DNA of 64,000 nucleotides from an uncultured Hyphomicrobiales bacterium (GCA_903828145.1 CAIKKY010000015.1:1-64000); one strand, 5' to 3'; positions 24,146-60,786 are shown, numbered from the stretch's first letter. Made by a program: numbers and translations. Notes: generated by a model not told the origin, from the letters alone.

Positions 24146-24463
24146 ATGCGGGAGCTGGTGCTGGCCGCGTTTTTCGTGGGCTTCGGCATGGCGTCGGCGG
24201 CAACGCTGACGCATCTGGTGCAAGCGGTCAGCGGGCAAACGCTCGGGTTCGGTCTGGGCCGCGGCGGCGTTGTGCGCCGCCTCTCCAGCCTCATGGTCAC
24301 CGCCATCTGCGGGCCCTATGTGCTGCTGCAGGTGGGTCGGCTGGCTGAGCGCGAGGGCCAGTTGAGCGTCGGTCCGGCGCTGGTTTTGGCCCTTGTGGCC
24401 TTTGGCTGGGCCTTCATTTCGGGGCTGATGCTGCTCGCTGCCCTCATCAATGTCGGGCTTTAG
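24146..24463 (+). CDS. Small membrane protein of unknown function
   Basis: ATG 24146 follows GGGGGGCAGG. The 105-aa product has three hydrophobic helices (residues 3-25, about 52-68 and 80-104) with a basic loop RGGVVRRLSSL between the first two. The gene is compact, lies directly after a terminator, and its stop overlaps the end of the convergent BTLCP gene by 4 bases. I do not recognise the family; it looks like a conserved small inner-membrane protein of rhizobia. Confidence 0.65.
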   Translation: MRELVLAAFFVGFGMASAATLTHLVQAVSGQTLGFGLGRGGVVRRLSSLMVTAICGPYVLLQVGRLAEREGQLSVGPALVLALVAFGWAFISGLMLLAALINVGL

Positions 24464-25083
24464 TTGGTGCTGAGCATATTGCGGTTATCAATGAGCCGCA
24501 CCCAGAGGCCGGGGTTCAGTTCGGACTGCCGCTTCAGATAGCGATAGGGCGTCTCGGTCCACAGCCGGACCCGGGGGTCCTGGTTGTCGAGCACCAGATC
24601 GCCGCGATCAGTGCGCACCATCAAAATGGCGTGGCCTTCACCCCGCTGATCGCGCGCTACGGTCATAAGCAGCACCGAAGGGCTGAAGCCCAAAGCGATG
24701 AGTTCGCGGCGCTTTTCGAGCGCGATATCCTCGCAATCGCCTGCGGTGGCCGGATAGGTCCAGAATTCCGCCACATGATAGAGCCGCTGGTCGGTGATGG
24801 GCACAATTCGCCGGTTGACGGCGGTATTGACCGCCTCGATCGTGACATAGGTGCCGGCATCGAGCCGGATCGGTCCCGAGTGCCCGCCGGGGCGGCAGTC
24901 GGCCTCGTGACGGGCACAGAACGCCCCTGCGCCAACCGGAATGCTGGTCTGCGGCCCTTCGGGCACAAAGGCCGTCCGCCCGAGATCGGGCGCAGCGGCG
25001 CGGGAGGGGATAACAAGCACGAGCAGCATCAGACCGAAGACAATGGTCAGGGTAACGCTGTTGGCAAAAACGGCGCGGGACAT
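24460..25083 (-). CDS. Transglutaminase-like cysteine peptidase (BTLCP, LapG-like)
   Basis: The protein has 207 residues with an N-terminal signal or anchor (residues 10-30). The BTLCP domain (PF06035) shows the catalytic triad Cys117 in AGDCEDIALEKR, His151 in GEGHAILMV and Asp166 in LVLDN. Pseudomonas LapG, the prototype, is a calcium-dependent periplasmic protease that clips a biofilm adhesin under c-di-GMP control. No large adhesin or LapD-like gene is in the window, but the gene upstream on the same strand encodes a PilZ protein (117-base gap). A paralogue lies at 47134. Confidence 0.92.
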   Translation of the reverse strand: MSRAVFANSVTLTIVFGLMLLVLVIPSRAAAPDLGRTAFVPEGPQTSIPVGAGAFCARHEADCRPGGHSGPIRLDAGTYVTIEAVNTAVNRRIVPITDQRLYHVAEFWTYPATAGDCEDIALEKRRELIALGFSPSVLLMTVARDQRGEGHAILMVRTDRGDLVLDNQDPRVRLWTETPYRYLKRQSELNPGLWVRLIDNRNMLSTN

Positions 25084-43649: not shown

Positions 43650-44834
43650 ATGCGGATTAGTACGAGGGCGCTGATTGCAGGCGTTGCGTTGAGTTTCGGG
43701 CTTGGGTCTTCGGCGCTGGCGCTGGAGCCCCCGTTTATGGGGCTGGATGCCAAGGCGCTCGTTGCACAGTGCCTCGTTGCCGATAATTGTCTCGACGCTG
43801 TGCGGGCCTATGTGGCGCGGGCCAAGGCCCTGGCGCCCAGCGAACGCGACCGGGCCCTCGTGGGGCTGGTGCTGGCGTTTGGCCACGCGGTACAGAGCGC
43901 TCCGACCGAGACGAAGGCAGATGTCGCTGTGGCCCTGCGATTTGTCGCTGACAATGCGGCGTCCTGGGTCCTCACGCAGCGGATTTTCGCCATTGCGGCG
44001 GAGATTACCGGCTCGCTTGAGACGACCGGATCGATCGGTCTGAGCGCGGTGGCCGAGGCTTCGCCCCTGTCTGGGTCTGAGAGTGGACCGCTGCCGGCCC
44101 CGACCGACCGGTTGATTGCACCGGCAGGACCGACACTTTCCCAATGGGCGTCCCTCACGCTGCGGGGAGATACGCCGGTCCAAGAGGCCATAAGCGGACC
44201 GACATCGGGGCTCGACGGGGTTCTGACCGATCTGCCGAAGCGAGTGCCCGATGCCGTCCCGGTGGTGCCAGCGGCAGACCAGCTCGCGGCACTCCTTGCG
44301 GCGGCGTCGCAGTCGCAGGCCGAGCAGGCGCGACTATCCGGACCGGACGTCCGGATACTCATGATGGTTGTGCCGCTACCGCCTACCCCGGACAATGACA
44401 TGCCCCGGCCTGAGGCGCCGACGATCGTCGACGATGGGACCCTCGTGCCCGACATTTTGGGCGAGGTCACGGCGGCCAGTCCCATGGCCATCAGCCCGGC
44501 CTTTTTCGGTTTTGGCGATGTGTCTGTTTTCGACTACTGGTCCGCTGAACCGGCCGATTCAGAAGGCGGCCTGGGTGTCGATGACCTGCCTCAAGAACAA
44601 TCGCAGGTCGACGGCGCAAGCGCGGCCCCTGCTGAGCCTGATACCGAAACCGACGCGGACAGCGGAATGCCTGTTGATGAGGAGCCCGTTACGGCGGTTG
44701 GAGACCTTGGCGAGGCTACGACCGAGCCTCATGGCGACGCCGTTGAGCCGCCCGATGGCGGGAGCAGCGAGCAAGCAGACCCAGTGTCGCAGCCGGCCGA
44801 CAGCGCCGAGACGCAAACTACGCCCGACCTGTGA
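43650..44834 (+). CDS. Secreted acidic low-complexity protein with a new N-terminal domain
   Basis: ATG 43650 is preceded by AAGGG at 8 bases. The 394-aa product has a signal peptide (residues 1-25), then a domain of about 90 residues: LVAQCLVADNCLDAVRAYVARAKAL, then RDRALVGLVLAFGHAVQS. The same pattern makes up almost the whole 48538 protein. After that comes a long Pro/Ala/Asp/Glu-rich tail without predicted fold, ending in QTTPDL. The two cysteines of the domain (AQC, NCL) are shared with the paralogue. Function unknown. A strong terminator follows. Confidence 0.7.
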   Translation: MRISTRALIAGVALSFGLGSSALALEPPFMGLDAKALVAQCLVADNCLDAVRAYVARAKALAPSERDRALVGLVLAFGHAVQSAPTETKADVAVALRFVADNAASWVLTQRIFAIAAEITGSLETTGSIGLSAVAEASPLSGSESGPLPAPTDRLIAPAGPTLSQWASLTLRGDTPVQEAISGPTSGLDGVLTDLPKRVPDAVPVVPAADQLAALLAAASQSQAEQARLSGPDVRILMMVVPLPPTPDNDMPRPEAPTIVDDGTLVPDILGEVTAASPMAISPAFFGFGDVSVFDYWSAEPADSEGGLGVDDLPQEQSQVDGASAAPAEPDTETDADSGMPVDEEPVTAVGDLGEATTEPHGDAVEPPDGGSSEQADPVSQPADSAETQTTPDL

Positions 44835-44847
44835 GGTCAAACGACAG

Positions 44848-44876
44848 GCCCGGCGCTATTTTTGCGCCGGGTCTTT
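44848..44876. terminator. Hairpin terminator overlapping the SDR gene end
   Basis: CCCGGCGC-TATTTTT-GCGCCGGG followed by TCTTTC lies just after the 43650 gene. Its right arm is also the last codons of the convergent SDR gene, so it may serve both. Confidence 0.75.
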
Positions 44877-45629
44877 CGGCATCATCAGGCGGGTGAGCGC
44901 AAAAAACAGCGGGTAAGGCAGAAGCCGGATCAGCTTCATCACAAAGGTGATCCGCCGCGGGAAGGCCACTTCAAAGCGCTTGGAGCCGAAAAGGCCCGCC
45001 AGCATGCGATCGGCCGCGGCGTCGGTTTCAAGCAGAAGCGGCATGGGGAAATCATTGCGGGCGGTCAGTTCGGATTTGTAAAAACCCGGGTTGACCACGC
45101 GGACCGCGATGTTGCGCGGCGCGAGTTCGGTACGCATGGTCTGGGCAAGGCTGATGAGCGCGGCCTTCGACGCATTGTACGCGGCGGCACGCGGCAGGCC
45201 AAAATAGCCGACCAGCGAGGCAATGATGGCGATTTCACCACCCGCGGGCTGGCTTTCCATCTGCTTCACCAGCGGGTTGAGCACACGCACCAGCCCGAGC
45301 AGGTTGGTATTGATCACGGTCTCAAACGCAGAAAACTCATAATCGCCGATATCCATGGGCGACCAGGCACCCGCGCCATAGATGAACAGGTCGATGGCGC
45401 CCTGATCGAGCACGATCTGCCGCAGCACCCGCTGGATTGCTACCGTGTCGGTGACATCGAGCGGATAAGGCTGGATGCGCGGATTGGCCGAAGCCACCGC
45501 CTCCAGCATCTCCCGACGGCGACCCGATATTGCTACATGCCAGCCGGCCTGCGCCAGCTTGCGCGCAGCGGCCGCGCCAATGCCCGAGCCGCCGCCAATA
45601 ATCCACGCGGTGCGGCGCGGGGTCGTCAT
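44856..45629 (-). CDS. Short-chain dehydrogenase/reductase in the rpoE-chrR operon
   Basis: The protein has 257 residues. NAD(P)-binding GGGSGIGAAAARKLAQ, GAGAWSP, the catalytic YNASKAAL (Tyr-Lys) and Ser in IASLVGYFG are all present, so it should be active. The start overlaps the chrR stop by 4 bases, making it the third gene of rpoE-chrR-SDR. An SDR is part of the sigma-E regulon in several alphaproteobacteria with the FAD/DUF1365/CFA genes. The substrate is unknown. Confidence 0.9.
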   Translation of the reverse strand: MTTPRRTAWIIGGGSGIGAAAARKLAQAGWHVAISGRRREMLEAVASANPRIQPYPLDVTDTVAIQRVLRQIVLDQGAIDLFIYGAGAWSPMDIGDYEFSAFETVINTNLLGLVRVLNPLVKQMESQPAGGEIAIIASLVGYFGLPRAAAYNASKAALISLAQTMRTELAPRNIAVRVVNPGFYKSELTARNDFPMPLLLETDAAADRMLAGLFGSKRFEVAFPRRITFVMKLIRLLPYPLFFALTRLMMPKDPAQK

Positions 45630-46285
45630 AAGCCGAAGAACGGCTGGAGCGCGCGGATTACCCGGTTGCGGAAGCTCAGTCTGGCATCAACGGCCACAAG
45701 GCAGATGCAATCCTGCCCGGCTTCGGCAATCGGCTGGTGCTCGACGTCTTCGTCATGGTCGGCAATATCGCCAACCCCAAATCGGCCAAAGCGATCCTGA
45801 TAGGCGCCCTGAAGGATGAGGGTGAGTTCCTGCCCGCCGTGGCTGTGCTCAGGCACGGGACGGCCCCCGGCAACGCGCAGCAGCATGAGGCGGCCATCGA
45901 CGCCGGGGCTGACCGGCAGATCAGCGACCGAGACGCCGGGGCCGGACCAGCGCCAGCGCACCGACTCGAGGCCGCCAGCAAGGCGGGATGCCAGCGGCGC
46001 GGGCAGGCGGCTATCGGCCGCCGCCTTTGACCGTGAGGTCTCGCGGGTCAATTCAATCGAATCATCGGCCCGCGCCAACAGCCGGTCGAGCGCGCCGGGG
46101 CTCATGGCGGCCTCGCCGGCCGAGGCCAGCACGGCGCCCCCAATGGTGTCGATGCGCTTTTTCTGCTCACGGCAGGCTTCGCACATCGCCACATGGGTGG
46201 CGACCACAACGGCATAGGGCTCCTCCAGCGTTCCTGCTGAGAACGCCATGAGGGTCGAGATGTCGGGGTGGAAGGCGATGGTCAA
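45626..46285 (-). CDS. chrR: ChrR-type zinc anti-sigma factor
   Basis: The protein has 219 residues. The N-terminal zinc anti-sigma domain has His6 and the H31-x3-C35-x2-C38 motif (HVAMCEAC). The C-terminal half is a cupin (VPEHSHGGQELTLILQGAYQDRF, GDIADHDEDVEHQP) with the His/Glu metal set described for ChrR. In Rhodobacter, ChrR holds sigma-E inactive until singlet oxygen or certain peroxides trigger its breakdown through the cupin domain. The gene overlaps rpoE upstream and the SDR downstream, 4 bases each. Confidence 0.93.
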   Translation of the reverse strand: MTIAFHPDISTLMAFSAGTLEEPYAVVVATHVAMCEACREQKKRIDTIGGAVLASAGEAAMSPGALDRLLARADDSIELTRETSRSKAAADSRLPAPLASRLAGGLESVRWRWSGPGVSVADLPVSPGVDGRLMLLRVAGGRPVPEHSHGGQELTLILQGAYQDRFGRFGVGDIADHDEDVEHQPIAEAGQDCICLVAVDARLSFRNRVIRALQPFFGL

Positions 46286-46878
46286 TGCAGATCCTCCAAC
46301 AGAGGGCGGAGCCGCTCGTAAGCGAGACGGAGCCGGGACTTCACGGTACCGAGCGGAATACCAATCCGTTCGGCAATTTCTGAGTGGGCGAGGTCTTGAA
46401 CAAAGCTCAATTCCACGACTTTACGCTGGTCCACTGGCAGATGTTCGATGGCCTTGGCGACCCGGGCGATGATCTGGGACTGCTCCACAGTATCGCTGCC
46501 GAGCGGCGCATCGGACGCCAGTTCAACGTCGTCGAGGTCAACCCAGGGTTTGCTGGAGTGACGCCGGACCAGATCGATGCGCAGATTGCGCGCGATGGTA
46601 AAAATCCAGGTGCTGGCCGCGCCTTTTTCCGGGGAATAAAGGTGCGCCTTGCGCCAGACGGTGAGGAGCGCTTCCTGGGTCAGATCTTCGGCCTGGGCCT
46701 GATCAGCACCCAGGCGCAACATCATGGATTTGATACGCGGCGCGAAAAGCTGGAACAGGCGGGTCAACGCTTCCCGGTCGCGGGCCTCGGCCACACGACG
46801 GATCAGCTCGATCGGCTCAATGCTGACTGCCGTGCGATCCGGGTTGCCTTCAAATTCTTCCATAGTGACCGCGTACAT
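46282..46878 (-). CDS. rpoE: ECF sigma factor, RpoE of the ChrR-controlled group
   Basis: The protein has 198 residues. Region 2 (residues 40-105: LTRLFQLFAPRIKSMMLRLG, AEDLTQEALLTVWRK, STWIFTIARNLRIDLVRR) and region 4 (140-195: EQSQIIARVAKAIEHLPVDQRKVVELSF, GIPLGTVKSRLRLAYERLR) are complete. With chrR directly downstream it belongs to the ECF11-like group answering singlet oxygen. ATG at 46863 is an alternative start. The upstream TGATCC promoter indicates autoregulation. Confidence 0.94.
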   Translation of the reverse strand: MYAVTMEEFEGNPDRTAVSIEPIELIRRVAEARDREALTRLFQLFAPRIKSMMLRLGADQAQAEDLTQEALLTVWRKAHLYSPEKGAASTWIFTIARNLRIDLVRRHSSKPWVDLDDVELASDAPLGSDTVEQSQIIARVAKAIEHLPVDQRKVVELSFVQDLAHSEIAERIGIPLGTVKSRLRLAYERLRPLLEDLH

Positions 46879-46906
46879 CTGCGGGCGCGCTCCAGACCGA
46901 TTGGGC

Positions 46907-46936
46907 TTTTAACGCCCGGGTGCGCCCCTTGGATCA
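46907..46936 (-). promoter_or_regulatory. Candidate autoregulatory RpoE promoter
   Basis: Reading the minus strand: TGATCC (46936-46931), 18 bases, TTAAAA (46912-46907), ending 29 bases before the rpoE ATG. It has the same -35 and spacing as the element before the FAD oxidase gene at 39039. Confidence 0.55.
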
Positions 46937-47133
46937 GGTATTCGGTCCTCGACGGCCAATTTTGTGCCCCGGTGCGGCCAAGGTCAAGGCGATCACGGTG
47001 CATCTCGGTCGCTTATAGAGCCGTCGTTACGCGATTGGATAAAATTGCACACAAATTGCAGCGTCCGTCCTAAAGGGGAGGCAAGGGGCAGGGGGCATGG
47101 TGGCGGGAACAGATTTCCTTCAGGTCTTTCCCG

Positions 47134-47697
47134 ATGCCCATTCTGCTCCGCATTTCGCCGCTCACGGCCCGTGCCGCGTCCCGCTTCAGTGCGGCGCTCA
47201 TCGCGGTGTTTGCGCTGTCGCTCTCGTTTGTGCTGACGACGGCCCCGGCCCGGGCGGAGGGCGGCGTTGCGCCTTTGGGCTATCAGTTGTTCTGCCTCAC
47301 CATGCCGGCTGAATGCCAGCCGGGCGGGCGCGATCATATGAGCCTCGATGACGCGAAGATTGCGCTGCTGAAGGCCGTGAATGCCCGGGTGAATGCATCG
47401 ATCCGCCCAAAGCATGACGGCGAGGTTGACGTGTGGAGCGTCAATGTGTCCGTCGGGGATTGCGAGGACTATGTGTTGACCAAGCGCCATGTGCTGATTG
47501 CGGCGGGCCTGCCGCCGAGCGCGCTGCGCATTGGCTATGTGAAGACCCGCAGCGGCGAGGGCCATGCGATCCTGATCATCAAGGCCGACGGCCGCGATCT
47601 GGTGCTCGATAATCTGGTGAGCGCGGTACGCCCCTTGAGCCAGACCGGCTATCGCCTGATTTCAGCCTCGGGGGCCAACCCCCTGCGCTGGAGCTGA
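47134..47697 (+). CDS. Second transglutaminase-like cysteine peptidase (BTLCP)
   Basis: The protein has 187 residues with a signal peptide to about residue 41 (APARA). The catalytic triad is Cys110 in VGDCEDYVLTKR, His144 in GEGHAILII and Asp159 in LVLDN. It is paralogous to the 24460 protein and to LapG. CLTMPAECQPGG near the N-terminus is the Cys-containing strand common to this rhizobial branch. It lies at the edge of the exopolysaccharide locus, so a role in remodelling surface proteins is plausible but unproven. Confidence 0.92.
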   Translation: MPILLRISPLTARAASRFSAALIAVFALSLSFVLTTAPARAEGGVAPLGYQLFCLTMPAECQPGGRDHMSLDDAKIALLKAVNARVNASIRPKHDGEVDVWSVNVSVGDCEDYVLTKRHVLIAAGLPPSALRIGYVKTRSGEGHAILIIKADGRDLVLDNLVSAVRPLSQTGYRLISASGANPLRWS

Positions 47698-47701
47698 AGA
47701 A

Positions 47702-48280
47702 CTAGAGCCAGGTGGCCGGTTTTTCGGTGCCCAGGATGGCGGCGAGCAGGCTTTCATAGCGATCGAACGGATTGCCGGTGTCCGGCGCCATGCCGCCAGT
47801 CAATGTCCACAGGGATTCGGCGCGCCGAAATACCGGGCTCAGGTCGTCCCCGGTGACAATTCCTGCCATGAGCTGGTCGCGCAGGGCCGCGAGGTCGGCC
47901 AAAGTATTGGCAGCAGCATCCGCCTCGTTCTCGCCCGGAGGGAACACCGCGCCGCCCGCGCGGATCGTGTAGGCGATTGAGGTCAGGAAATAGCACCCCT
48001 CGGCCAGCAGGTCGCGATCGATCATGGCGGCGTCAGCAACCAGCACATCGGGGTCTGACCACCCGGAAATCCGGCGCTTCAGCCCTGCCATCACTGCATT
48101 TGCCGGAAGGATATCGAACCGCACGCGCGTGAGCGTGAGGAGGATCAGACGCGAGGCCGTGCGTGTTGCGAGCGATTGCACAGGGGCTGTGACAGGGGCC
48201 GATGCGCCCAGATCGGCAGCGGTGACGGGCAGGGACGGTGCCGCGAGACTCAAGGCGCAAAGCATAAGGAGGGTACGCAT
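47702..48280 (-). CDS. Secreted protein of unknown function
   Basis: ATG 48280 (MRTLLMLCALSLAAPSLPVTAADLG) starts a signal peptide; the longer ORF begins with TTG seven codons earlier. The 192-aa product is largely helical: LILLTLTRVRFDILPANAVMAGLKRR and NTLADLAALRDQLMAGIVTGDDLS. One cysteine (EGCYFL). No family recognised. It converges on the BTLCP gene with a 4-base gap and is divergent from the 48538 gene. Confidence 0.65.
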   Translation of the reverse strand: MRTLLMLCALSLAAPSLPVTAADLGASAPVTAPVQSLATRTASRLILLTLTRVRFDILPANAVMAGLKRRISGWSDPDVLVADAAMIDRDLLAEGCYFLTSIAYTIRAGGAVFPPGENEADAAANTLADLAALRDQLMAGIVTGDDLSPVFRRAESLWTLTGGMAPDTGNPFDRYESLLAAILGTEKPATWL

Positions 48281-48537
48281 GGTGAACGGCCCGTTAAACA
48301 ACAGTGAACTGGCTCCAAATAACGAATGCTACGGCCCATAGCTTACTGAATAATGTGTTATGGTTACCGCGTATGATTTAGATTAAATTTGAAACATCAG
48401 GAAATTTTCTTTGAACAACGGGGCGTTGCCGCGCTTGAATGGTCGCTGAGAGGATAGTGGGTCGACGCTTCAAGGTGTTGACAGAATACCGAAAAACCCT
48501 CATGTGTGGCGGACGTTGGAATTAGGAGACGCAGCAC

Positions 48538-48960
48538 ATGCGCAAGTTCTTGTCTGTCAGTTTGCTTGCGGCGGCGGTTTCGCTGTCGGGCAGCAATGCC
48601 TTCGCCGTTGTTGAGACTCCGGTGGATGTCGCCGGGATCGTGGCACAATGCGAGACGGCGGCCGCCTCGACCGGTCAGTGCCTAGCAGTGGTGCGCGCTT
48701 ATCTCGCGCAGTTGAAGGCCTTGCCGGCTGCGTCGCGCGATCAGGCCATTACCAATCTGGTCCTCGCGCTCGCTCCTTTGGGTCAGAGCAGGGCGGCCAA
48801 TGCGGCCTTCCGCAGGGAACTGGCTCAGGCTGTCCGTGAGGTTGCAAAGTTGGCCTCCACACCACAGCAGGTGGCCAGCCTTCAGAACATTGCCGGCGGT
48901 ATTGAACGCGGCAGTGTGCAGACCGCTGCGGTGCCGGAGACGCTGGGCAGCGATCGCTAA
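48538..48960 (+). CDS. Small secreted protein with the domain shared with the 43650 protein
   Basis: ATG 48538 is preceded by AGGAG. The 140-aa product has a signal peptide (MRKFLSVSLLAAAVSLSGSNAFA). A helical domain of about 100 residues follows: IVAQCETAAASTGQCLAVVRAYLAQLKAL, RDQAITNLVLALAPLGQSR, then VREVAKLASTP and IAGGIERGSVQTAAV. Residues 30-130 align with residues 30-125 of the 43650 protein, including the two cysteines. Downstream lie exopolysaccharide genes, with which it may be transcribed (71-base gap). Function unknown. Confidence 0.7.
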   Translation: MRKFLSVSLLAAAVSLSGSNAFAVVETPVDVAGIVAQCETAAASTGQCLAVVRAYLAQLKALPAASRDQAITNLVLALAPLGQSRAANAAFRRELAQAVREVAKLASTPQQVASLQNIAGGIERGSVQTAAVPETLGSDR

Positions 48961-49031
48961 ACAACTCCGCCCGCGCAGGGGACGCGCGGGCCGAGCCGGT
49001 CTTGGCGGACAGATCCCGGTGGAGTTTACCT

Positions 49032-49706
49032 TTGCGGCCTTGGGCGGCAATCACGGCGCTTGTGCTGTTTTCGGCGTGCCTCATGATTGTGGCGGCGGTC
49101 GAATTCGGCCGTGAGCTGACGCCAGCGTTGATTGCATCGACCCCGCCAACAGCCCGGTTTGCCGCCATGGTGGGCGGCGACACCGGCCCGGCGCATTCTT
49201 ACAGCTCAAAAGAGCAGTTTTTCCGCGATTGTCTCGACATCAGCCGCTCGATTGTAGGCCAGGCGCAGCCGACCAGCCGTCGCGAGGCTTTTGATGCGCG
49301 CTGTGGCCGCGCGGCGACCGAGAGCGTTGGTGCCATGCCGCTCTATGCGCGGGGCTGGCTGGTGCTCGCGGCGCTGGCCAAGGCGGCTGGCAATGAGGCG
49401 GGCTTTGCCGACGATCTCATTCGCGCCTTTCGTGCGGCCCCCCATGCGCACTATCTGGCCCAGACCCGCGTTGCCCTTGTGGGCGCCGATTACGGCCAAA
49501 GTCGCGAAGACGTTCAGGCGCTCTATCGCAGCGACATCGTTACCCTGCTCTCCGGCATGGCGGGGCGCGATCTCGTCGCGGCGCGCTTCATCGACTTCCC
49601 CAACGAGCGACCGGCGATTCGCGCGGCGCTTGACGGCGCGACGGCCAATGAACAGGCCGGGTTCCTTGCGGCGCTAAAAGCGCGCGGTGTTGAGGGGTCG
49701 CCATGA
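49032..49706 (+). CDS. Membrane-anchored periplasmic protein of the exopolysaccharide locus
   Basis: I prefer TTG 49032 with GGAG 7 bases upstream over TTG 49002. The 224-aa product has one N-terminal helix (AAITALVLFSACLMIVAAV) and a periplasmic helical domain with two cysteines (FFRDCLDISRS, FDARCGRAA). The C-terminal part (YARGWLVLAALAKAAGNEAGFADDLIRAF) looks like helical repeats. The stop overlaps the start of the polymerase/ligase gene. I know no family name; the position suggests a partner of the polymerase or of the co-polymerase. Confidence 0.7.
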   Translation: MRPWAAITALVLFSACLMIVAAVEFGRELTPALIASTPPTARFAAMVGGDTGPAHSYSSKEQFFRDCLDISRSIVGQAQPTSRREAFDARCGRAATESVGAMPLYARGWLVLAALAKAAGNEAGFADDLIRAFRAAPHAHYLAQTRVALVGADYGQSREDVQALYRSDIVTLLSGMAGRDLVAARFIDFPNERPAIRAALDGATANEQAGFLAALKARGVEGSP

Positions 49707-51145
49707 GTGATGATCCGGACAGCCTTGAGGTGCCGCAACTGGACGGGCTGGCCCGCCCGGTCCGGTCGCCCTTGATGCTGACTGGCGGCGCCTCCGACCG
49801 ACGGGGCAGCGGGGCGCAGGCGCTCAACGAGATTGCCGCCGTGCTTCTGGCGCTTGTCACCCTCGTTTCAGCCGTACCGCTCGGCAGCGGACGGCCGCTG
49901 TGGGTTATGGGGTTTGCCACGCTCATCAGCGCGGTGGGCACGCTTTATGGCGTGGGGCTTCTCATGGTCGGCGGCAAACTCAGGCGGGCCGTGGCCCCGC
50001 TCCTTCCCGAGGCGCTGATCTGGTGCGTGTTCACGGCGGCGCTCGGGGCGCAGCTCATGCCGCTCGTTCCGCTTTGGCCGGGTCTTGCGGCGACGCTCGG
50101 TGGGGAAGCCCTGCTGCAGAGCCAGCTCAGTCTCGACCCCGGGGAGACCGGCCAGATGCTGATTGCCATGCTGGCCATCGCGCTGCTGTTTTACCTGACA
50201 GCGCAGGTGGCCGCGAACCGGGCCCGGGCCCGGCTGCTGATGCGGCTGATCTTCGCGGGTCTTGTGGCCTATGCGGCCTATGGGCTTTTGGCCCTCACGC
50301 AGTTTGGCGATACGCTGCTCGGCTTCAAAAAAACCACCTATCTCGGCTTTGCCACGGGCACCTTTGTCAACCGGAACAGCTTTGCAACCTTCCTTGCGAT
50401 GGGCCTGGCCCTTGGTGCGGCTATTGGTGTCGATACGCTGTTGCGCCCCACGCGCGATGGGTGGGTGGGGCGCGCGCTGCGGGTGGGGATCGTGGTGGCG
50501 TGTGAGGCGCTGCTGCTGATTACGCTGCTTGCGACTGGCAGCCGCATGGGGGCGACCGCCGCCGTGACCGGCCTCATTGTTGTGCTGGTGCCGGGGATTG
50601 CCGCGCTCAGGCCGCGCCTGGGACAAATTGCGCTCATCCTGGTGGGCCTGGTTCTGGCCGCGCTGCTGGTGCTGGCGCTGTTCGGCGAGAGCCTGCTCAG
50701 CCGGGCCATTGTGCAGAGCCTCACCGAAGATGCGCGGGTGGAGCTGCACCGCGGCGTCTGGGCCGCGATCTGGCAGCGGCCGTGGTTTGGCTATGGCGGG
50801 GGCAGTTTCGCCTCGGTGTTTCCGGCGTTTTCGCCTGCCGACCTGGCCGGGGACCTGATTTTTGACCGCAGCCATTCGACCTATCTGGCCCTGTGGTTCG
50901 AGATGGGGCTCGTGGTGGGCAGTCTGCCGATGCTGATGGTGCTGATTATGGCCGGGCGACTTGTGCGGCGCGTGCTCGATGGATCGGAACGGATGACGGC
51001 GCTCGGCGCACTCGGCGTGATTGGTGTCGTGGCCGTGCATTCGCTCATGGATTTCAGCCTTGAAATCTATGCCAATGCGCTGCTCTTCACCTTCATCCTC
51101 GCGCTGGGGGTTGCCGGGACGCGCGCGACAAAGAGGTCGGCATGA
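49703..51145 (+). CDS. O-antigen ligase/Wzy-like polymerase
   Basis: The protein has 480 residues and about 11 membrane helices. The large periplasmic loop of the Wzy_C family is present with RVELHRGVWAAIWQRPWFGYGGGSF and the following RSHSTYLALWFEMG. Such proteins join oligosaccharide repeat units or attach glycans to acceptors at the periplasmic face. Overlaps of 4 bases on both sides tie it to the 49032 and 51142 genes. Whether it polymerises or ligates cannot be told from sequence. Confidence 0.85.
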   Translation: MSDDPDSLEVPQLDGLARPVRSPLMLTGGASDRRGSGAQALNEIAAVLLALVTLVSAVPLGSGRPLWVMGFATLISAVGTLYGVGLLMVGGKLRRAVAPLLPEALIWCVFTAALGAQLMPLVPLWPGLAATLGGEALLQSQLSLDPGETGQMLIAMLAIALLFYLTAQVAANRARARLLMRLIFAGLVAYAAYGLLALTQFGDTLLGFKKTTYLGFATGTFVNRNSFATFLAMGLALGAAIGVDTLLRPTRDGWVGRALRVGIVVACEALLLITLLATGSRMGATAAVTGLIVVLVPGIAALRPRLGQIALILVGLVLAALLVLALFGESLLSRAIVQSLTEDARVELHRGVWAAIWQRPWFGYGGGSFASVFPAFSPADLAGDLIFDRSHSTYLALWFEMGLVVGSLPMLMVLIMAGRLVRRVLDGSERMTALGALGVIGVVAVHSLMDFSLEIYANALLFTFILALGVAGTRATKRSA

Positions 51146-51975
51146 TCTGGTCTGCGCTGCTTCGCCGCCTGACCGGTCGCCAGCCGCCGACTTCGGGGCT
51201 GGTCCGCCGCCGGATTGACCCCACGGGCCCGTTCTATGCCGTGGGCGATGTTCATGGCCATCTCGACGCGCTCCTCGCTCTTGAGGCGCTGATCGTCGCT
51301 GATGCGAGGGAGCAGGGGGGGCAGCCAACCCTTGTCTATCTCGGCGACCTGATCGACCGCGGGCCGCAGAGCGCCGGGGTGCTGGATTGCCTGATGGCCA
51401 GGGACGAGTCTGTGACGCGGCTGGCGCTTGGCGGCAACCATGAAGCGCTGATGCTCGAGTTTCTCGCGCGCCCCAGGCGTGAGCATGAATGGCTTGAATT
51501 CGGCGGACGCGAGACCCTGCTCTCATACGGCATCAGCGACGACGACCTGCGGCGGGCTGAGGCCGTGCCGCGCCGGCTTGAGCAGATCGTCCGGGCCCAT
51601 GTGCCCGACGAGCATGTGCGTTTTCTCGCCGGACTGCCGCATCTGATCGAGGCGCCCGGGCATCTTCTCGTGCATGCGGGGTTGAGGCCCGGTGTGGGGC
51701 TCGAGCAGCAGAGCGCAGGGGACCTCCTCTGGTATCGCGATGATTTCGAGGCCGATTATGCCGGGCTCGGCGCGCGCGTGGTGCATGGGCATACCCCGGG
51801 CCCGGCGGTGCGGATGAAGCCGTTCCGCCTCAATCTCGATACCGGCGCTTACCGGGGCGGACCGCTGAGCGCGGCCCGGCTGAGCGCCCATGCTGATCCC
51901 TTCATTCTCGCGGTGGCTCAAGGCTCCCGCGGTGGTGCCTGGACCCCCTGGTCCGGCCCGACATCGACATCCTGA
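51142..51975 (+). CDS. PPP-type metallophosphoesterase
   Basis: The protein has 277 residues. Calcineurin-like motifs are complete: AVGDVHGHLDAL, VYLGDLIDRGPQS, LGGNHE and VVHGHTPGP. It resembles bacterial serine/threonine phosphatases and ApaH-like enzymes. It is cytoplasmic, translationally coupled to the polymerase gene, and 15 bases upstream of the tyrosine kinase gene. In many capsule systems a low-molecular-weight tyrosine phosphatase (Wzb) or a PHP phosphatase occupies this place, so this enzyme may be the functional counterpart (inference). Confidence 0.9.
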   Translation: MIWSALLRRLTGRQPPTSGLVRRRIDPTGPFYAVGDVHGHLDALLALEALIVADAREQGGQPTLVYLGDLIDRGPQSAGVLDCLMARDESVTRLALGGNHEALMLEFLARPRREHEWLEFGGRETLLSYGISDDDLRRAEAVPRRLEQIVRAHVPDEHVRFLAGLPHLIEAPGHLLVHAGLRPGVGLEQQSAGDLLWYRDDFEADYAGLGARVVHGHTPGPAVRMKPFRLNLDTGAYRGGPLSAARLSAHADPFILAVAQGSRGGAWTPWSGPTSTS

Positions 51976-51990
51976 ACAGGCGGAACTGAC

Positions 51991-54135
51991 ATGGACGCGA
52001 CGATTGATCTCAAGGCCGTTCTGGGCCTTCTCCAGCGGCGGTTCTGGCTGGTTGCGCTGGTCATGGCGCTGGTGCTCGGGGTCGCGGGGATCGTGCTGTT
52101 GACACTGAAGCCCGTCTATACGGCAACGGCGCTGGTGCTGGTCGATCCCAGCAAGAAGAACCTGATGGACCCCGAGTCTCAGCTGTCGGGGTCGAGTTCG
52201 GATTCGCTGCGGGTAGACAGCGAGGTGGAACTCGTGAAGTCCGAGACCACGCTGCTCAGCGTTACCGATCAGCTCGATCTCGTCTCCGACCCGGAATTTG
52301 GCCTGTCGCTGGGGCTCAAGGACATGATCCTTGCCTTTTTGCGTCTCGGCGAGCCGACCCTGCCCACGGGCGAGGAAGCCGTGCAGGCCGTGATCGACAA
52401 ATTGCGGCAATCCGTCGGCGCACAGCGCAAGGGGCTGACCTATCTCATTGCGGTGAATGCGAAATCCGGCCGTCCGGAGTTTGCTGCCGCGCTCGCCAAT
52501 GCCGTTGCCGACACCTACATTCTCCAGCAGCTTAACGCGAAGGTGGAGTCCATCCGCGCCTCAGGCCGGGTGGTGGACGGGCGGATTGCCGAGGCCAATG
52601 CGGCGGTGGCGCAATCGGAAGAGGCGTTTGACAGTTTCGTTGAGCAAAATCTCGACCGGATCAGCGCCGCCACGGGCCGGAGCGATCTCGCCGGGGTGCG
52701 CGAAGAGCTGCAAAAGCTGAATTCGAGCCGCACCGAAGCGCAGCTTGTAGCCGATCTGGCGCAGCAGAGCCTCGCGAGCCGGGACTGGAGCAAGCTGGCC
52801 GACAGCGTGAAGGACGAGGCGATCCGTCGGCTTGAAACCGAGCGCCGGAAACTGCTCGAAAGCCTGAGCACAGCTGCCGAGGGCGCCAAGCCCTATGTCG
52901 ATCTGCAGGCGAGCCTCAACAGCGTGGAAGCCGAGCTGAACACGGCGGGCGAAGGGGCGGTGACCGCGCTGAAAAAGCAGGTGGCCGAAACGCAGGCGCG
53001 CGCCACTGAAATGCGTGCCGATTTGAGAAAGACGATTTTGCAGGGCGATCTGCCCTCGGACATCCTCACCAGCATCTATGCGATGCAGCAGAATTCTGAA
53101 ATCGCGCGAAGCCAGTATCAGACGCTGCTGACGCGGCAGACGGAACTCTCGAACCAGGAATATCTGCAATTGCCGGATGCACGGGTGGTGTCGCCGGCGA
53201 CGCCGCCCTCGAAGCCGAGTTTCCCCACACCGTCGATTATCCTGTTCGCTGCTGCGGCGGCGGGGCTGGGGCTCGGCATTGCGCTGGCGCTGCTCGTTGA
53301 AAATTTCGTCGGCGGGTTCACCAGTGAGGCTCAGGCCGAAACACTGCTGCGCACGCCCATTGTCTCGGTGATCCCCCGGTACCGCACGCAACGCCGCGGC
53401 GGCACGGAGTCGCTCTCGGCGGCGGATGCGCTGGTGGTGTCGCCCCTCTCCGTTTACTCCGAAGCGATCCGGCGGATCCGCATCGGCATAGATCAGGCGA
53501 TCCGACGGGCGCGGGCCGGGGGCGCGGGCGGGCGGGGCCCCGGTGTGGTGGTCATGGTCTCCTCGGCGGCTCCCAGCGAGGGTAAATCCACGGTATCGCT
53601 CTCGTTGGCGCGGGCCTATGCGCTGTCGGGCCAGACGACGCTGCTGATTGATTGCGATCTGCGCAAGCCGAGCGTGCATCGGCAGATCGGGCTCGATCCG
53701 TCCAACGGGCTCCTCGATTTTCTGAGCAATGCCGGCGATGATTTCGACATCAAGAAAATCATGACCATCGACAAGGGTTCCGGCGCGCAGGTGGTGCTGG
53801 GGTCGCGGCGCAGCGATATTCCGACGGATCAGCTGATTGCCGGCAAGACCTTCGCCCGCCTCATAACGGCGGCCCGGAAGAATTTCGATGTGGTGGTGCT
53901 CGATACCCCGCCCGTCGGCCCGGTGGTCGATGGGCTCTATCTGAAGAGCTTCGCCGATGCGATCGTGTTCGTGGTCAAATGGTCGGCCACGCCGCAGCAG
54001 GAAGTGCGCGCGGCGGTGACATCACTGGATGAGGCCAAGGGCAGTGACGTGCCGCTCGTTGCTGTGCTCAATATGGAGAACACGAGCCGCATCGCCTATC
54101 GCGGCCGCTATGGCGGCTATTACACCGAGGAATAG
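51991..54135 (+). CDS. Polysaccharide co-polymerase with BY-kinase domain (ExoP/Wzc-like)
   Basis: The protein has 714 residues. A Wzz domain is bounded by membrane helices at about 20-40 and 414-437, with a coiled-coil periplasmic part between (190-390). The cytoplasmic bacterial tyrosine kinase has Walker A SSAAPSEGKST (524-534), Walker A' LLIDCDLRKP (551-560) and Walker B VVVLDTPPV (634-642). The C-terminus YRGRYGGYYTEE carries four tyrosines (703, 707, 710, 711) for autophosphorylation. It controls chain length and export of exopolysaccharide. It ends the operon starting at 49032 or 48538. Confidence 0.93.
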   Translation: MDATIDLKAVLGLLQRRFWLVALVMALVLGVAGIVLLTLKPVYTATALVLVDPSKKNLMDPESQLSGSSSDSLRVDSEVELVKSETTLLSVTDQLDLVSDPEFGLSLGLKDMILAFLRLGEPTLPTGEEAVQAVIDKLRQSVGAQRKGLTYLIAVNAKSGRPEFAAALANAVADTYILQQLNAKVESIRASGRVVDGRIAEANAAVAQSEEAFDSFVEQNLDRISAATGRSDLAGVREELQKLNSSRTEAQLVADLAQQSLASRDWSKLADSVKDEAIRRLETERRKLLESLSTAAEGAKPYVDLQASLNSVEAELNTAGEGAVTALKKQVAETQARATEMRADLRKTILQGDLPSDILTSIYAMQQNSEIARSQYQTLLTRQTELSNQEYLQLPDARVVSPATPPSKPSFPTPSIILFAAAAAGLGLGIALALLVENFVGGFTSEAQAETLLRTPIVSVIPRYRTQRRGGTESLSAADALVVSPLSVYSEAIRRIRIGIDQAIRRARAGGAGGRGPGVVVMVSSAAPSEGKSTVSLSLARAYALSGQTTLLIDCDLRKPSVHRQIGLDPSNGLLDFLSNAGDDFDIKKIMTIDKGSGAQVVLGSRRSDIPTDQLIAGKTFARLITAARKNFDVVVLDTPPVGPVVDGLYLKSFADAIVFVVKWSATPQQEVRAAVTSLDEAKGSDVPLVAVLNMENTSRIAYRGRYGGYYTEE

Positions 54136-55474: not shown

Positions 55475-57649
55475 TCAAAGTGCCACTCGATAGGCTGCGA
55501 AAATGCTGAGCCCCACGATACCATTCTGTCCGAGGCTCTCTGCTACCCCTTTGACGGAGAGCGTGCGGCGGGGATCGAGGTCGTGTTCAACACCGCCGCT
55601 CAAGCGGATGTTCGTACCCGACGAAATACCCGGGGAAGCAAAGGATATGTCCTCCAAGCCTGCAATGCTGCTGGTCGCCCTGAGCAAATCGCTCGACCGC
55701 AGCAATCCAAGCTCAACTTCGGCACCAAACCTGAAGCGAGTGGACGGGCCGATTGCGCTGGTTAGTTCTGCACCTGCTAAGACTGTTGCTGAACGATATG
55801 TATATGGGTCGAAGGTCATGCCTTCGTCGACGCCAGTTTCCAGCACATCAGAATAGCCCTGACGCCGGACATAGTTGAAGCGTCCCTCCACATATCCCTG
55901 TAGCACGGAGCCCGTTTGAACATTGGCTCCCCAGCCAAGTCGTGCGGAGAGGGCATAGCTGTCCATGTCGGCAGTGCCCTCCGCAAAAGTTGCAGTTCCG
56001 ACGTAATTCCTGTGCGACAGATCGACCGAGCTGCGATCCACAATGGCAGCGACCCGGGCGAAAAAGCCCGTATAGTTGTCGTTTTCAGCATAGCTAGCCG
56101 AAGCGCCGAGCGTTATGCCGCCATTGTCCGTTACGCTCCCAACACTGCTTCCCCCGACGGAGAGGTCGGCGAAGCCCGTTACATGAATGCGATCGTCAAG
56201 TTTTTGGGCATAGCTTGCCCAGAGGCCGTTGGCTCCGGTACCCGCCATTGACGACATGCGGATGCCACCTTCCAGGCAGGCGTTCTGAGGACCGAAGGCT
56301 GAGCATTCATGATCGAGTGCCCGTGACAGCGCAGCGAGCCGCCCGCTCGTCACTCGGCTCAGACTTTCAAGGCCGGGATCGAGGATGTCGAGGTCCCATG
56401 AAAAGCCCGCAACACTCTCGCGCAGCATCCAGATGCTGTCGCCATACAACCCGAAAGCTCGATGGTCGCCGGGCGTGGACTGCGCAAACTCATTGGCGAT
56501 ATCCTCTGCGCTCAGCCCCGTCAGCACATCGGTATAAGTCCGACGCTGGAGGCTCGATCCGGCAAAGTCATTTTCCGAGCTGCCAGCATAGACACCAAAA
56601 GTCATTTGCCCGGAATGATAGGTCGGATCGATAGCAAACTGGCCATAGGCATCATCATAGATCACGACATTGTATGTGTTGGGCAGGCGGCCCTGATACG
56701 TCAACGCGCGCCCGAAACTACCCGACGTTCCCTGGTAATTGTTGATCTCGCCAATCCGGGCATCATCGGCGACATAGATGTCCGGTGTGGACGAGTTGGT
56801 GGCGGAAATCTCGCCGAAATTGGTGATCGAGGGGATGACCGGGCTGTAGATGTTGCAGCCAGCCCAGTTGGGAAGCTCATGGCATGCCGTGACAATGTTG
56901 ATCGCTGATTCCGGCCCGGTGATGCGGCCGGTATACAGGTTGAAGATGCCGCCGATCGTTGAACTGTCCTCGATCTGGATGGCATTTTCCTGACCGGTAG
57001 TCTGGATGGTCCCGGCATTCCACAACCCACCCTCGAATTTGGAATTCCATTCCAGTAGCATCGCGTGGCTGGATGAGGTAATCAGCCCCCCTGCGCGGTT
57101 GTAAAATGCCCCTTTCACGTCGGAATCGAACATGTGGACCGCAAATCCGCCCGTCGATTGCACAAGGCCGGAATTGTCCACATTCCCCAAGAGCCCGGAA
57201 TCGTAGTCAAGGAAAATGGCCTTGCCATCGGTCAGCAGGCTACCCGCGTTGAATATAGATCCGCCGGTTTTCTGTCGAATCTTGACGGCATCCTCGCCAG
57301 TCGTGGTTACATCGGCACCCGAAGACACCGTGATGGACTCGCCGGTGTCGAGGTCGCATCGACTGGAGACTGAACCGCTGACAGTGATAATGCCCGAGAC
57401 AGCGGCCGGACATGCGGACGCATTAGTCGGCAGCCATGACGCAATCAAGGCAATCGAGAGACAGAAGAACAGGTCTGAGACCGACACAGACCTTTTCCCA
57501 GCACTCAAGGCCTGCCTACGTCTCAAGGCAGTCTTCGCGCTGGAGGTGATCGCGGCAAGGTAACGCTGCAGGAGGGGGTGTCGCGCGTCGCGACCAATAA
57601 GACCTCCCCACGCCAGGCCTGTGACCTGAGTGGTATTGTTCCTGATCAT
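55475..57649 (-). CDS. Autotransporter (type V secretion) protein
   Basis: ATG 57649 follows a GGGGGG run at 7 bases; 724 residues. An extended basic N-region (RRRQALSAGKRSVS) precedes the signal core LFFCLSIALIASWLPTNASA. The passenger (about 70-400) is built of short Gly/Asn-rich strand repeats (ITTTGEDAVKIRQKTGGSIFNAGSL, FYNRAGGLITSSSH, IFNLYTGRITGPESAINI), a beta-helix pattern. From about 450 the autotransporter beta-barrel follows (LWASYAQKL, GGITLGASASY, GWGANVQTGSVLQGYVEGRFNYVR, and a last strand IFAAYRVAL). Probable adhesin or surface factor. It is divergent from the HilA-like regulator and lies in the mobile region. Confidence 0.88.
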   Translation of the reverse strand: MIRNNTTQVTGLAWGGLIGRDARHPLLQRYLAAITSSAKTALRRRQALSAGKRSVSVSDLFFCLSIALIASWLPTNASACPAAVSGIITVSGSVSSRCDLDTGESITVSSGADVTTTGEDAVKIRQKTGGSIFNAGSLLTDGKAIFLDYDSGLLGNVDNSGLVQSTGGFAVHMFDSDVKGAFYNRAGGLITSSSHAMLLEWNSKFEGGLWNAGTIQTTGQENAIQIEDSSTIGGIFNLYTGRITGPESAINIVTACHELPNWAGCNIYSPVIPSITNFGEISATNSSTPDIYVADDARIGEINNYQGTSGSFGRALTYQGRLPNTYNVVIYDDAYGQFAIDPTYHSGQMTFGVYAGSSENDFAGSSLQRRTYTDVLTGLSAEDIANEFAQSTPGDHRAFGLYGDSIWMLRESVAGFSWDLDILDPGLESLSRVTSGRLAALSRALDHECSAFGPQNACLEGGIRMSSMAGTGANGLWASYAQKLDDRIHVTGFADLSVGGSSVGSVTDNGGITLGASASYAENDNYTGFFARVAAIVDRSSVDLSHRNYVGTATFAEGTADMDSYALSARLGWGANVQTGSVLQGYVEGRFNYVRRQGYSDVLETGVDEGMTFDPYTYRSATVLAGAELTSAIGPSTRFRFGAEVELGLLRSSDLLRATSSIAGLEDISFASPGISSGTNIRLSGGVEHDLDPRRTLSVKGVAESLGQNGIVGLSIFAAYRVAL

Positions 57650-57894
57650 TTCTAGCCCCCCTTGGACCGGCATCTCATGCCAGACTGCAGCAGCCGTAGT
57701 TCTATCTAAAACAGACCGAACTGGACTGACGTATTCTTGACCAATCCTGACCAGAGCAGGCACGTTGTATGGGGCTCAACCTGATAGTCTTACGGATGCA
57801 TTACATGATCCAAATGGTGTCTTCAGATGTGTCGGAACGAACGGGCGTATAGCTGGCGCTCTCCGATGGCCTTGTCAGTCGGAGTTAATAGCCG

Positions 57895-59762: not shown

Positions 59763-59856
59763 TGGGGCCCATCTGCGCCGCCTCCACAATGAACCTGAAC
59801 AGTTGCATGGGGCGCTCACTTTGCCGACCCCGCAGATCAAGGACAGGACAGTGACT
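59763..59856 (+). ncRNA. Possible bridge RNA of the IS110 element
   Basis: The left non-coding segment can fold with a GCGCC (59775-59779) / GGCGC (59811-59815) stem. Its 31-base loop contains ACAGTTGC (59799-59806), repeated at the right end of the element (60790-60797). IS110 elements are known to encode a bridge RNA whose loops pair with target and donor DNA. That this is one is inference from position and this repeat. Confidence 0.25.
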
Positions 59857-60786
59857 ATGTCCCACACCTATATCGGCGTCGACGTCGCAAAAGACTGGAT
59901 CGACGTGTTCGACCCTTCCACCTCCCGGCATGAAAGTATTCCAACCGAGAAACATTCCCTTCGAAGGTTTGCAGCGAGCGTTGGCCAAGCCATCGTCGTT
60001 CTTGAAGCATCTGGCGGCTATGAGCGCCCGATCCTCGCCGCCCTATCCGAAGCCGAGCGCCATGCGGTATGCGTGAACCCTCGACATGCCCGGGAATTTG
60101 CGCGCGCCACGGGACGCTTAGCCAAGAGTGACCGCGTTGATGCGACGGTCCTCGCTGAGATGGGAAGAGCCCTCGAGTTGGCTCCCGCTTCCCCACGCTC
60201 GGCAGAACGCCAGCGTCTGTCAGACCTCACCGCGCATCGAAACGATATCACCGCCATGATCGTCGCCGAGAAGAACAGGCTGAGAGCGACAACGGACCAA
60301 TGGATCCGACGCAGTATTCTGCAACATATGCGGGCCTTGCAGGGCAGCCAGGCGAAAGTCGAAGCTGAGATGGAAGCCGTGATCCAAGAGCACGATGACC
60401 TGCGCGACCAATATGCGCGTCTGCGCTGCGTCAAGGGGATCGGGCCCGTCATCGCGGCCACCTTGATCGCACAAATCCCTGAACTCGGTCAGCTCGATCC
60501 AAGACGGATCGCGGCCCTCGCCGGACTGGCCCCGTACGCGAACGGCTCAGGTCATCGACGCGGCAGGCGCAGCATCTGGGGAGGACGCGGGACACTGCGC
60601 CGGTGCCTCTATCTTGCCGCTCTTACCGCAAGCAGGTTTGATCCACGGTTCAACGCCTTTAAGGAACGCCTCATTGCAACTGGAAAGGCAAGAAAGCTTG
60701 TCATCGTGGCCTGTGCCCGCAAGCTGCTGACAGTTCTTGATGCGATGATACGGACCAAGACTGCCTACCAAGAACTCCCCTCCTGA
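59857..60786 (+). CDS. IS110-family DEDD transposase
   Basis: ATG 59857 follows GGACAGGACAG; 309 residues. The RuvC-like N-terminal domain has the acidic residues in YIGVDVAKDWIDV, VLEASGGYE and KSDRVDATVLAEMG. A coiled-coil linker follows. The Transposase_20 C-terminal domain has VKGIGPVIAATLIAQIPELG, IAALAGLAPYANGSG and RRGRRSIWGGRGTLRRCLYLAA, with the conserved serine in the segment GRRSIWGG. All expected parts are present, so it may be active. Confidence 0.94.
   Translation: MSHTYIGVDVAKDWIDVFDPSTSRHESIPTEKHSLRRFAASVGQAIVVLEASGGYERPILAALSEAERHAVCVNPRHAREFARATGRLAKSDRVDATVLAEMGRALELAPASPRSAERQRLSDLTAHRNDITAMIVAEKNRLRATTDQWIRRSILQHMRALQGSQAKVEAEMEAVIQEHDDLRDQYARLRCVKGIGPVIAATLIAQIPELGQLDPRRIAALAGLAPYANGSGHRRGRRSIWGGRGTLRRCLYLAALTASRFDPRFNAFKERLIATGKARKLVIVACARKLLTVLDAMIRTKTAYQELPS

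Follow-up and report, generated by a model that had tools for sequence, protein, structure and literature searches.

Two genes in the window, the whole 64,000-nucleotide stretch of DNA from an uncultured Hyphomicrobiales bacterium that was analyzed, belong on the basis of their sequences to a fast-evolving and unnamed family of Sec-exported proteins. We regard it as almost certain that this is a real secreted disulfide family, the disulfides being predicted. The domain that defines it (hereafter the Cys domain) is probably an overlooked part of the exopolysaccharide (EPS) machinery. The best explanation, in which we place about as much belief as doubt, is that the proteins are disulfide-stapled secreted accessories of a HvyA-like capsule or EPS locus, possibly processed by the BTLCP peptidase of that locus.

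Two window genes share a secreted domain

The longer of the two proteins (43650..44834, + strand, 394 aa) was characterized by its open reading frame, BLASTP, a shuffle test and its tail composition. It consists of a signal peptide (approximately residues 1-24), the Cys domain (approximately residues 25-140) and a tail of about 254 residues rich in Pro, Ala and Asp. The shorter one (48538..48960, + strand, 140 aa), which was additionally examined by alignment and with an AlphaFold model, has a signal peptide at approximately residues 1-23, followed by the Cys domain, and its C-terminus reads TLGSDR. Both reading frames, starting with the ATG codons at 43650 and 48538, yield proteins with Sec-type signal peptides, and the ATG of the 48538 gene is preceded at 9 bases by AGGAG.

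Including the signal peptides, the two proteins align in BLASTP with E = 6e-11 and 40% identity over 114 columns. For the mature parts, without signal peptides, the local alignment score is 125, compared with a mean of 32.8 (sd 5.9, maximum 67) for shuffles of one partner, and none of 5000 shuffles reached the observed score. Thus, the similarity is due neither to the presence of two signal peptides nor to an Ala-rich composition. Chance and composition are also excluded by the recovery of full-length relatives with profiles (see below). The common domain proposed in the first-pass annotation is therefore well founded. The motifs quoted there, (I/L)VAQC, CL..VRAY(L/V)A, KAL, RD.A...LVLA and a late IA..I..GS, are all present, as are the two conserved cysteines, C41 and C47 in the 43650 protein (codons 43770-43772 and 43788-43790) and C38 and C48 in the 48538 protein (codons 48649-48651 and 48679-48681), which are invariant in 56 out of 56 aligned relatives. 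The tail of the 43650 protein has the acidic, Pro/Asp-rich character ascribed to it, with 34 Pro, 28 Asp, and 45 Asp plus Glu versus 7 Lys plus Arg among its 254 residues. The BTLCP gene at 47134, a conserved C-terminal motif and an optional second cysteine pair were absent from that annotation.

A fast-evolving family centered on the Devosiaceae

The genome from which the window derives contains exactly two copies, the 43650 and 48538 genes. A first profile combined the two window proteins with two matches from a relative belonging to the same family, and it retrieved further members in that relative. A second profile (A2) was positive in 35 of 136 genomes of the family and a 28-sequence profile in 44; in these 44 Devosiaceae genomes, the profile searches found about 60 relatives. 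The doubt that the first-pass annotation had attached to its own proposal, that the two sequences might align with no third protein, is decisively removed. A Devosia profile led to five named loci from Devosia species and an unclassified Rhizobiales isolate, and from such named relatives we infer that the window genome belongs to the Devosiaceae. Three clear members were found outside the family but within the order (genomes G326, G116 and G301, E-values of 3e-16 to 1e-12). Among 384 further genomes of the class, searched with profile A2 at E <= 0.001, there was no match besides the window's own genome. Profile A4, which includes both window genes among its rows, gives them scores of 116 and 95 bits.

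Members range from 108 to 442 aa, with Sec-type signal peptides, and relatives share only 21-33% identity with the short window protein. A very short subtype of 116-118 aa, ending in ASPV or close to it, also occurs in Devosiaceae EPS loci.

No member tested has a convincing match for the domain in Pfam, NCBIfam or PHROGs. The only family match among the members is to FecR, in the N-terminal part of one fusion protein (L132:7155-8222), where a FecR domain (PF04773, E 7e-14) is fused ahead of the Cys domain and the protein ends in ASPN. Foldseek searches of the PDB (E <= 0.001) gave no match for either of two AlphaFold models, and the sequence-profile matches in the PDB were to designed Ala-rich helical repeats, a composition effect. 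The proteins resemble small secreted helical disulfide proteins in having a Sec signal, a small helical bundle and one or two cysteine pairs. Known families of that kind, such as Rap1a/Tai or HdeA, were rejected given the lack of both a Pfam and a fold match. Our literature search found no paper on the Cys-domain family. The secreted domain for which the first-pass annotation knew no name is thus unnamed and undescribed as far as the searched libraries go, and the profiles recover a real family around it; the HvyA-like, Wzy/Wzc-type EPS setting is already known.

Paired cysteines and a predicted helical fold

Across the 56 aligned members, the only invariant positions are the two cysteines, C1 and C2, which follow the signal peptide at a spacing of 6-22 residues. 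A hydrophobic stretch precedes C1 in 51 of 56 members. The next most conserved positions of the mature protein are L80 (49/55), L76 (45/55) and A98 (42/55). A second pair, C3 and C4, 31-38 residues apart, is present in full or missing altogether in each of the 55 members scored; L132, whose C1 had been skipped by the script filter, was counted by eye as a four-cysteine protein, and L064 carries an additional cysteine outside the second pair. Because a well-supported tree clade (98/90) groups the four-cysteine L028 with the two-cysteine L029, apart from the four-cysteine clade of Devosia, the sequences suggest that the second pair was probably gained or lost more than once. An all-or-none pair with such a history is what a disulfide predicts.

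Structure prediction, one of the checks suggested in the first-pass annotation, was run on seven sequences, comprising the window sequences and those of the five named loci. The two AlphaFold models (pLDDT 79.5 and 75.5, pTM 0.71 and 0.69) each contain five main helices. Both place C1 and C2 in the first helical hairpin and become disordered at a TAA(I/V) motif. The models thus predict a five-helix domain of approximately 100 residues whose invariant cysteine pair would staple the N-terminal hairpin and whose second pair, which is often present, would staple the C-terminal hairpin.

A conserved border and variable tails

The domain ends at a conserved (T/V)AA(I/V), after which comes either a short tail with a C-terminal AS-x-N or a long low-complexity tail. 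The TAAI stretch is the most conserved one after the helices (T in 32/52, A in 35/52, A in 36/52 and I in 37/51), and both alanines, at alignment columns 131-132, are present in 30 out of 52 sequences. In the 48538 protein it reads TAAV (residues 129-132, positions 48922-48933). The corresponding stretch of the 43650 protein is GLSAVA, which lacks the dialanine.

In short forms a linker leads from the TAAI stretch to the terminus, which in most of them is Ala-Ser-x-Asn or close to that. Of 45 short forms, 35 have AS among their last five residues, where 2.9 are expected and the maximum in 2000 shuffles was 10. In the short window member the terminus is the divergent GSDR, and the tailed 43650 protein has no AS-x-N. 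The terminus is retained in L068, in which a collagen-like GPT repeat lies between the domain and a final SASPN. We also surveyed seven genomes for ASPN-stop codon matches. The gene-like reading frames among the matches read were family members and the rest were short or signal-less frames; a few TCN-codon matches without a locus were left unread.

Nine members, including the 43650 protein, have long tails of low complexity with a high content of Gly, Asn, His, Asp, Pro or Thr. These include DPT and Gly repeats in L031 and GNGGH repeats in L133-L136. At L154:4174-5067, the corresponding place in an EPS locus is taken by a cysteine-free, Ala-rich secreted protein ending in SVSPS, which may be a very distant or a convergent relative.

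The genes are linked to EPS and BTLCP genes

In the window, the 48538 gene lies 41 bp upstream of a same-strand run of four genes whose gaps are at most 15 bp or overlaps. The first (49002..49706, +) encodes p234, a 234-aa EPS-operon protein without a Pfam match. It is followed by genes for a Wzy-type O-antigen ligase/polymerase (49703..51145, +; Wzy_C, E 3.6e-16), a metallophosphatase-like protein (51142..51975, +; assigned from sequence motifs and position rather than a Pfam scan) and a Wzc-type chain-length determinant/BY-kinase (51991..54135, +; Wzz, E 4e-14, AAA_31 and a tyrosine-rich C-terminus). p234 is widely conserved across the EPS loci of the family, usually directly before wzy.

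Upstream of the 48538 gene is a gene for a BTLCP peptidase (47134..47697, +; Peptidase_C93, E 7.9e-39) with a signal peptide and the Cys-His-Asp motifs GDCEDY, GEGHA and LVLDN. Homologues of this type of BTLCP adjoin family members elsewhere. Between the two lies, on the opposite strand, a gene for p199 (47702..48301, -), a 199-aa secreted protein without a Pfam match; it has homologues in L116, L124, L125, L132, L137 and L144, which adjoin the BTLCP in several loci. A second BTLCP gene in the window (24460..25083, -) is of another, higher-scoring type (E 5.5e-58), and five 15-kb loci with BTLCPs of this second type contain neither EPS genes nor family members. Beyond the EPS genes, the sequence suggests a probable autotransporter (55475-57763, -) and an IS110-like transposase (59803-60786, +).

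According to the first-pass annotation, both Cys-domain genes flank rpoE and the EPS genes. This holds for rpoE and chrR, which encode an ECF sigma factor (46282..46878, -) and a ChrR-type anti-sigma factor (45626..46285, -) and lie between the two family members, but the EPS genes adjoin the 48538 gene only. The motif TGATCC-N16-CGTT, upstream of rpoE-chrR at 46911-46936 (-), resembles an autoregulated ECF (RpoE/ChrR) promoter. No such motif was found before either Cys-domain gene. Control of these genes by RpoE was rejected, as the motif occurs before rpoE only and the pattern count, 6 versus 3.1 expected, is near chance.

The clustering with BY-kinase or Wzy genes that the first-pass annotation had proposed to look for holds for most members once sugar transferases are counted too: 45 of 56 members have a homologue of Wzy, Wzc or a sugar transferase within 9 kb. 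A BTLCP gene lies within 1.4 kb of 26 of the 56 members, where 0.14 would be expected from the 1-4 BTLCP genes per genome. The corresponding binomial probability of 2e-52 is not to be taken literally, since the members are related by descent. The linkage recurs in varied arrangements and irrespective of strand, and L107 and L108 show it in a different family of the order. We conclude that the linkage both to Wzy, Wzc or sugar-transferase genes and to BTLCP genes is non-random.

Five tailed members (L133-L136 and L141) have a BTLCP gene nearby and no EPS genes within 9 kb. In L133:6083-12050, the tailed member lies between an upstream type I secretion ABC and HlyD pair and a downstream SdrD_B-like gene, with a BTLCP gene approximately 1.2 kb away, and this is possibly a Lap-like surface-protein locus. 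Conversely, no recognizable family member was found near the EPS-type BTLCPs of L149-L152 and L157-L159. AA or AS is present at the junction in 20 of 26 members with a BTLCP neighbor versus 15 of 30 without one (Fisher test, p = 0.054, on sequences that are not independent). Given this p value, we do not claim that the AA motif and a BTLCP neighbor are statistically associated.

Comparison with HvyA and LapG

In Caulobacter crescentus, the BTLCP HvyA belongs to a capsule locus that also encodes Wzc, Wzy, a metallophosphatase and Wza (PMC4241560). Judged by the genes alone, the window interval 47134-54135 has the same combination of a BTLCP with Wzy, metallophosphatase-like and Wzc genes, and the 51142 gene is the counterpart of the Caulobacter capsule-locus metallophosphatase (PMC4241560). 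It differs in its Cys-domain protein, which is not listed in the published Caulobacter cluster. HvyA prevents capsulation through a Cys-His-Asp triad, the catalytic residues being required, and its overexpression left the levels of the tested capsule-export proteins unchanged (PMC4241560). No target of HvyA is identified in that study, and the accessible text of later HvyA papers found by name gives none.

Another BTLCP, LapG, cuts LapA between Ala108 and Ala109 (PMC3032545). The LapA/LapG system and the Cys-domain loci share a periplasmic protease of the BTLCP family, gene adjacency and, in the case of the tailed L133 member, nearby type I secretion genes. An Ala-Ala where a folded N-terminal module gives way to a tail may be a further common feature: at the column concerned it is present in the 48538 protein (TAAV) and in 30 of 52 relatives, and absent from the 43650 protein (GLSAVA). 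In contrast to LapA, a giant repeat adhesin that is type I secreted and has no Sec signal, the Cys-domain members are small, have a Sec-type signal peptide and a predicted disulfide domain, and lack LapA repeats.

Possible roles of the Cys-domain proteins

It is likely that the Cys-domain proteins serve as accessories of EPS or of the cell surface. As accessories of a HvyA-like capsule or EPS locus they would work in the periplasm or at the surface. The disulfide domain could dock on the EPS apparatus or on the polymer, the C-terminus could act as a recognition tag, and a tail, where present, could reach into the matrix. The neighboring BTLCP might cut or cross-link the protein at the Ala-Ala junction, as LapG does with LapA, and so switch its function or release the tail. 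We put forward only tentatively that the proteins are substrates or direct partners of the BTLCP. Such a role fits because the proteins share an export compartment with the peptidase, the peptidase is encoded alongside and a dialanine sits at the border of fold and tail. We go no further on either the accessory or the BTLCP role because we infer both, the AA association is weak, the tailed window member has no AA and the Caulobacter locus lacks such a protein. A bolder version, which we consider rather improbable, is that these are the missing targets of HvyA-type BTLCPs in this order, namely disulfide-stapled switches of capsule or EPS export that bear a C-terminal tag and would be cut at TAA(I/V), with tailed paralogues as surface proteins that a similar cut would release.

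The strongest competing account, although somewhat unlikely in our judgment, is that of a structural protein of the matrix or surface, whose Cys domain binds polysaccharide or the outer surface and whose tails are spacers or matrix material. The proximity of BTLCP genes would then stem from common regulation or a common function at the surface rather than from a protease acting on its substrate. The tails do evolve freely, from GPT in L068, DPT/Gly in L031 and GNGGH in L133-L136 to acidic Pro/Asp in the 43650 protein, and the neighbors of L133 include a pair of type I secretion genes and an SdrD_B-like protein. Nevertheless, most members have no long tail, short forms retain the AS-x-N end, and the BTLCP remains adjacent even where EPS genes are absent. 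It is unlikely that the proteins are periplasmic chaperones or regulators of the Wzy/Wzc polymerization complex, setting chain length or gating export with no proteolytic processing. This would suit the same-strand position of the 48538 gene 41 bp ahead of p234-wzy-metallophosphatase-wzc and similar positions in L116, L120, L137 and L139, but in many loci (L064-L068, L110-L115) the gene is divergent from wzy/wzc, and there are no EPS genes within 9 kb of the tailed L133-L136 and L141.

A last possibility, to which we give very little credence, is that AS-x-N and TAAI merely reflect the shared ancestry of a poorly constrained small secreted protein and that its linkage to EPS genes arose as a lineage-specific passenger effect, without a direct connection in function. 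The distribution almost wholly within one bacterial family and the very fast divergence (the 21-33% identity given above) are in keeping with it. On the other hand, the linkage holds where the EPS genes are arranged differently and also in a different family of the order, insertions ahead of the C-terminal motif have left it intact, and the gain or loss of cysteines as a pair suggests selection.

BTLCP peptidases are widespread in alphaproteobacteria, and one of them, HvyA, governs the presence or absence of the capsule on the Caulobacter cell. The Cys-domain family provides a concrete candidate for a target or partner of such peptidases, whether or not EPS genes are nearby, and a domain worth naming for dozens of unnamed proteins in the EPS loci of Devosia and related bacteria.
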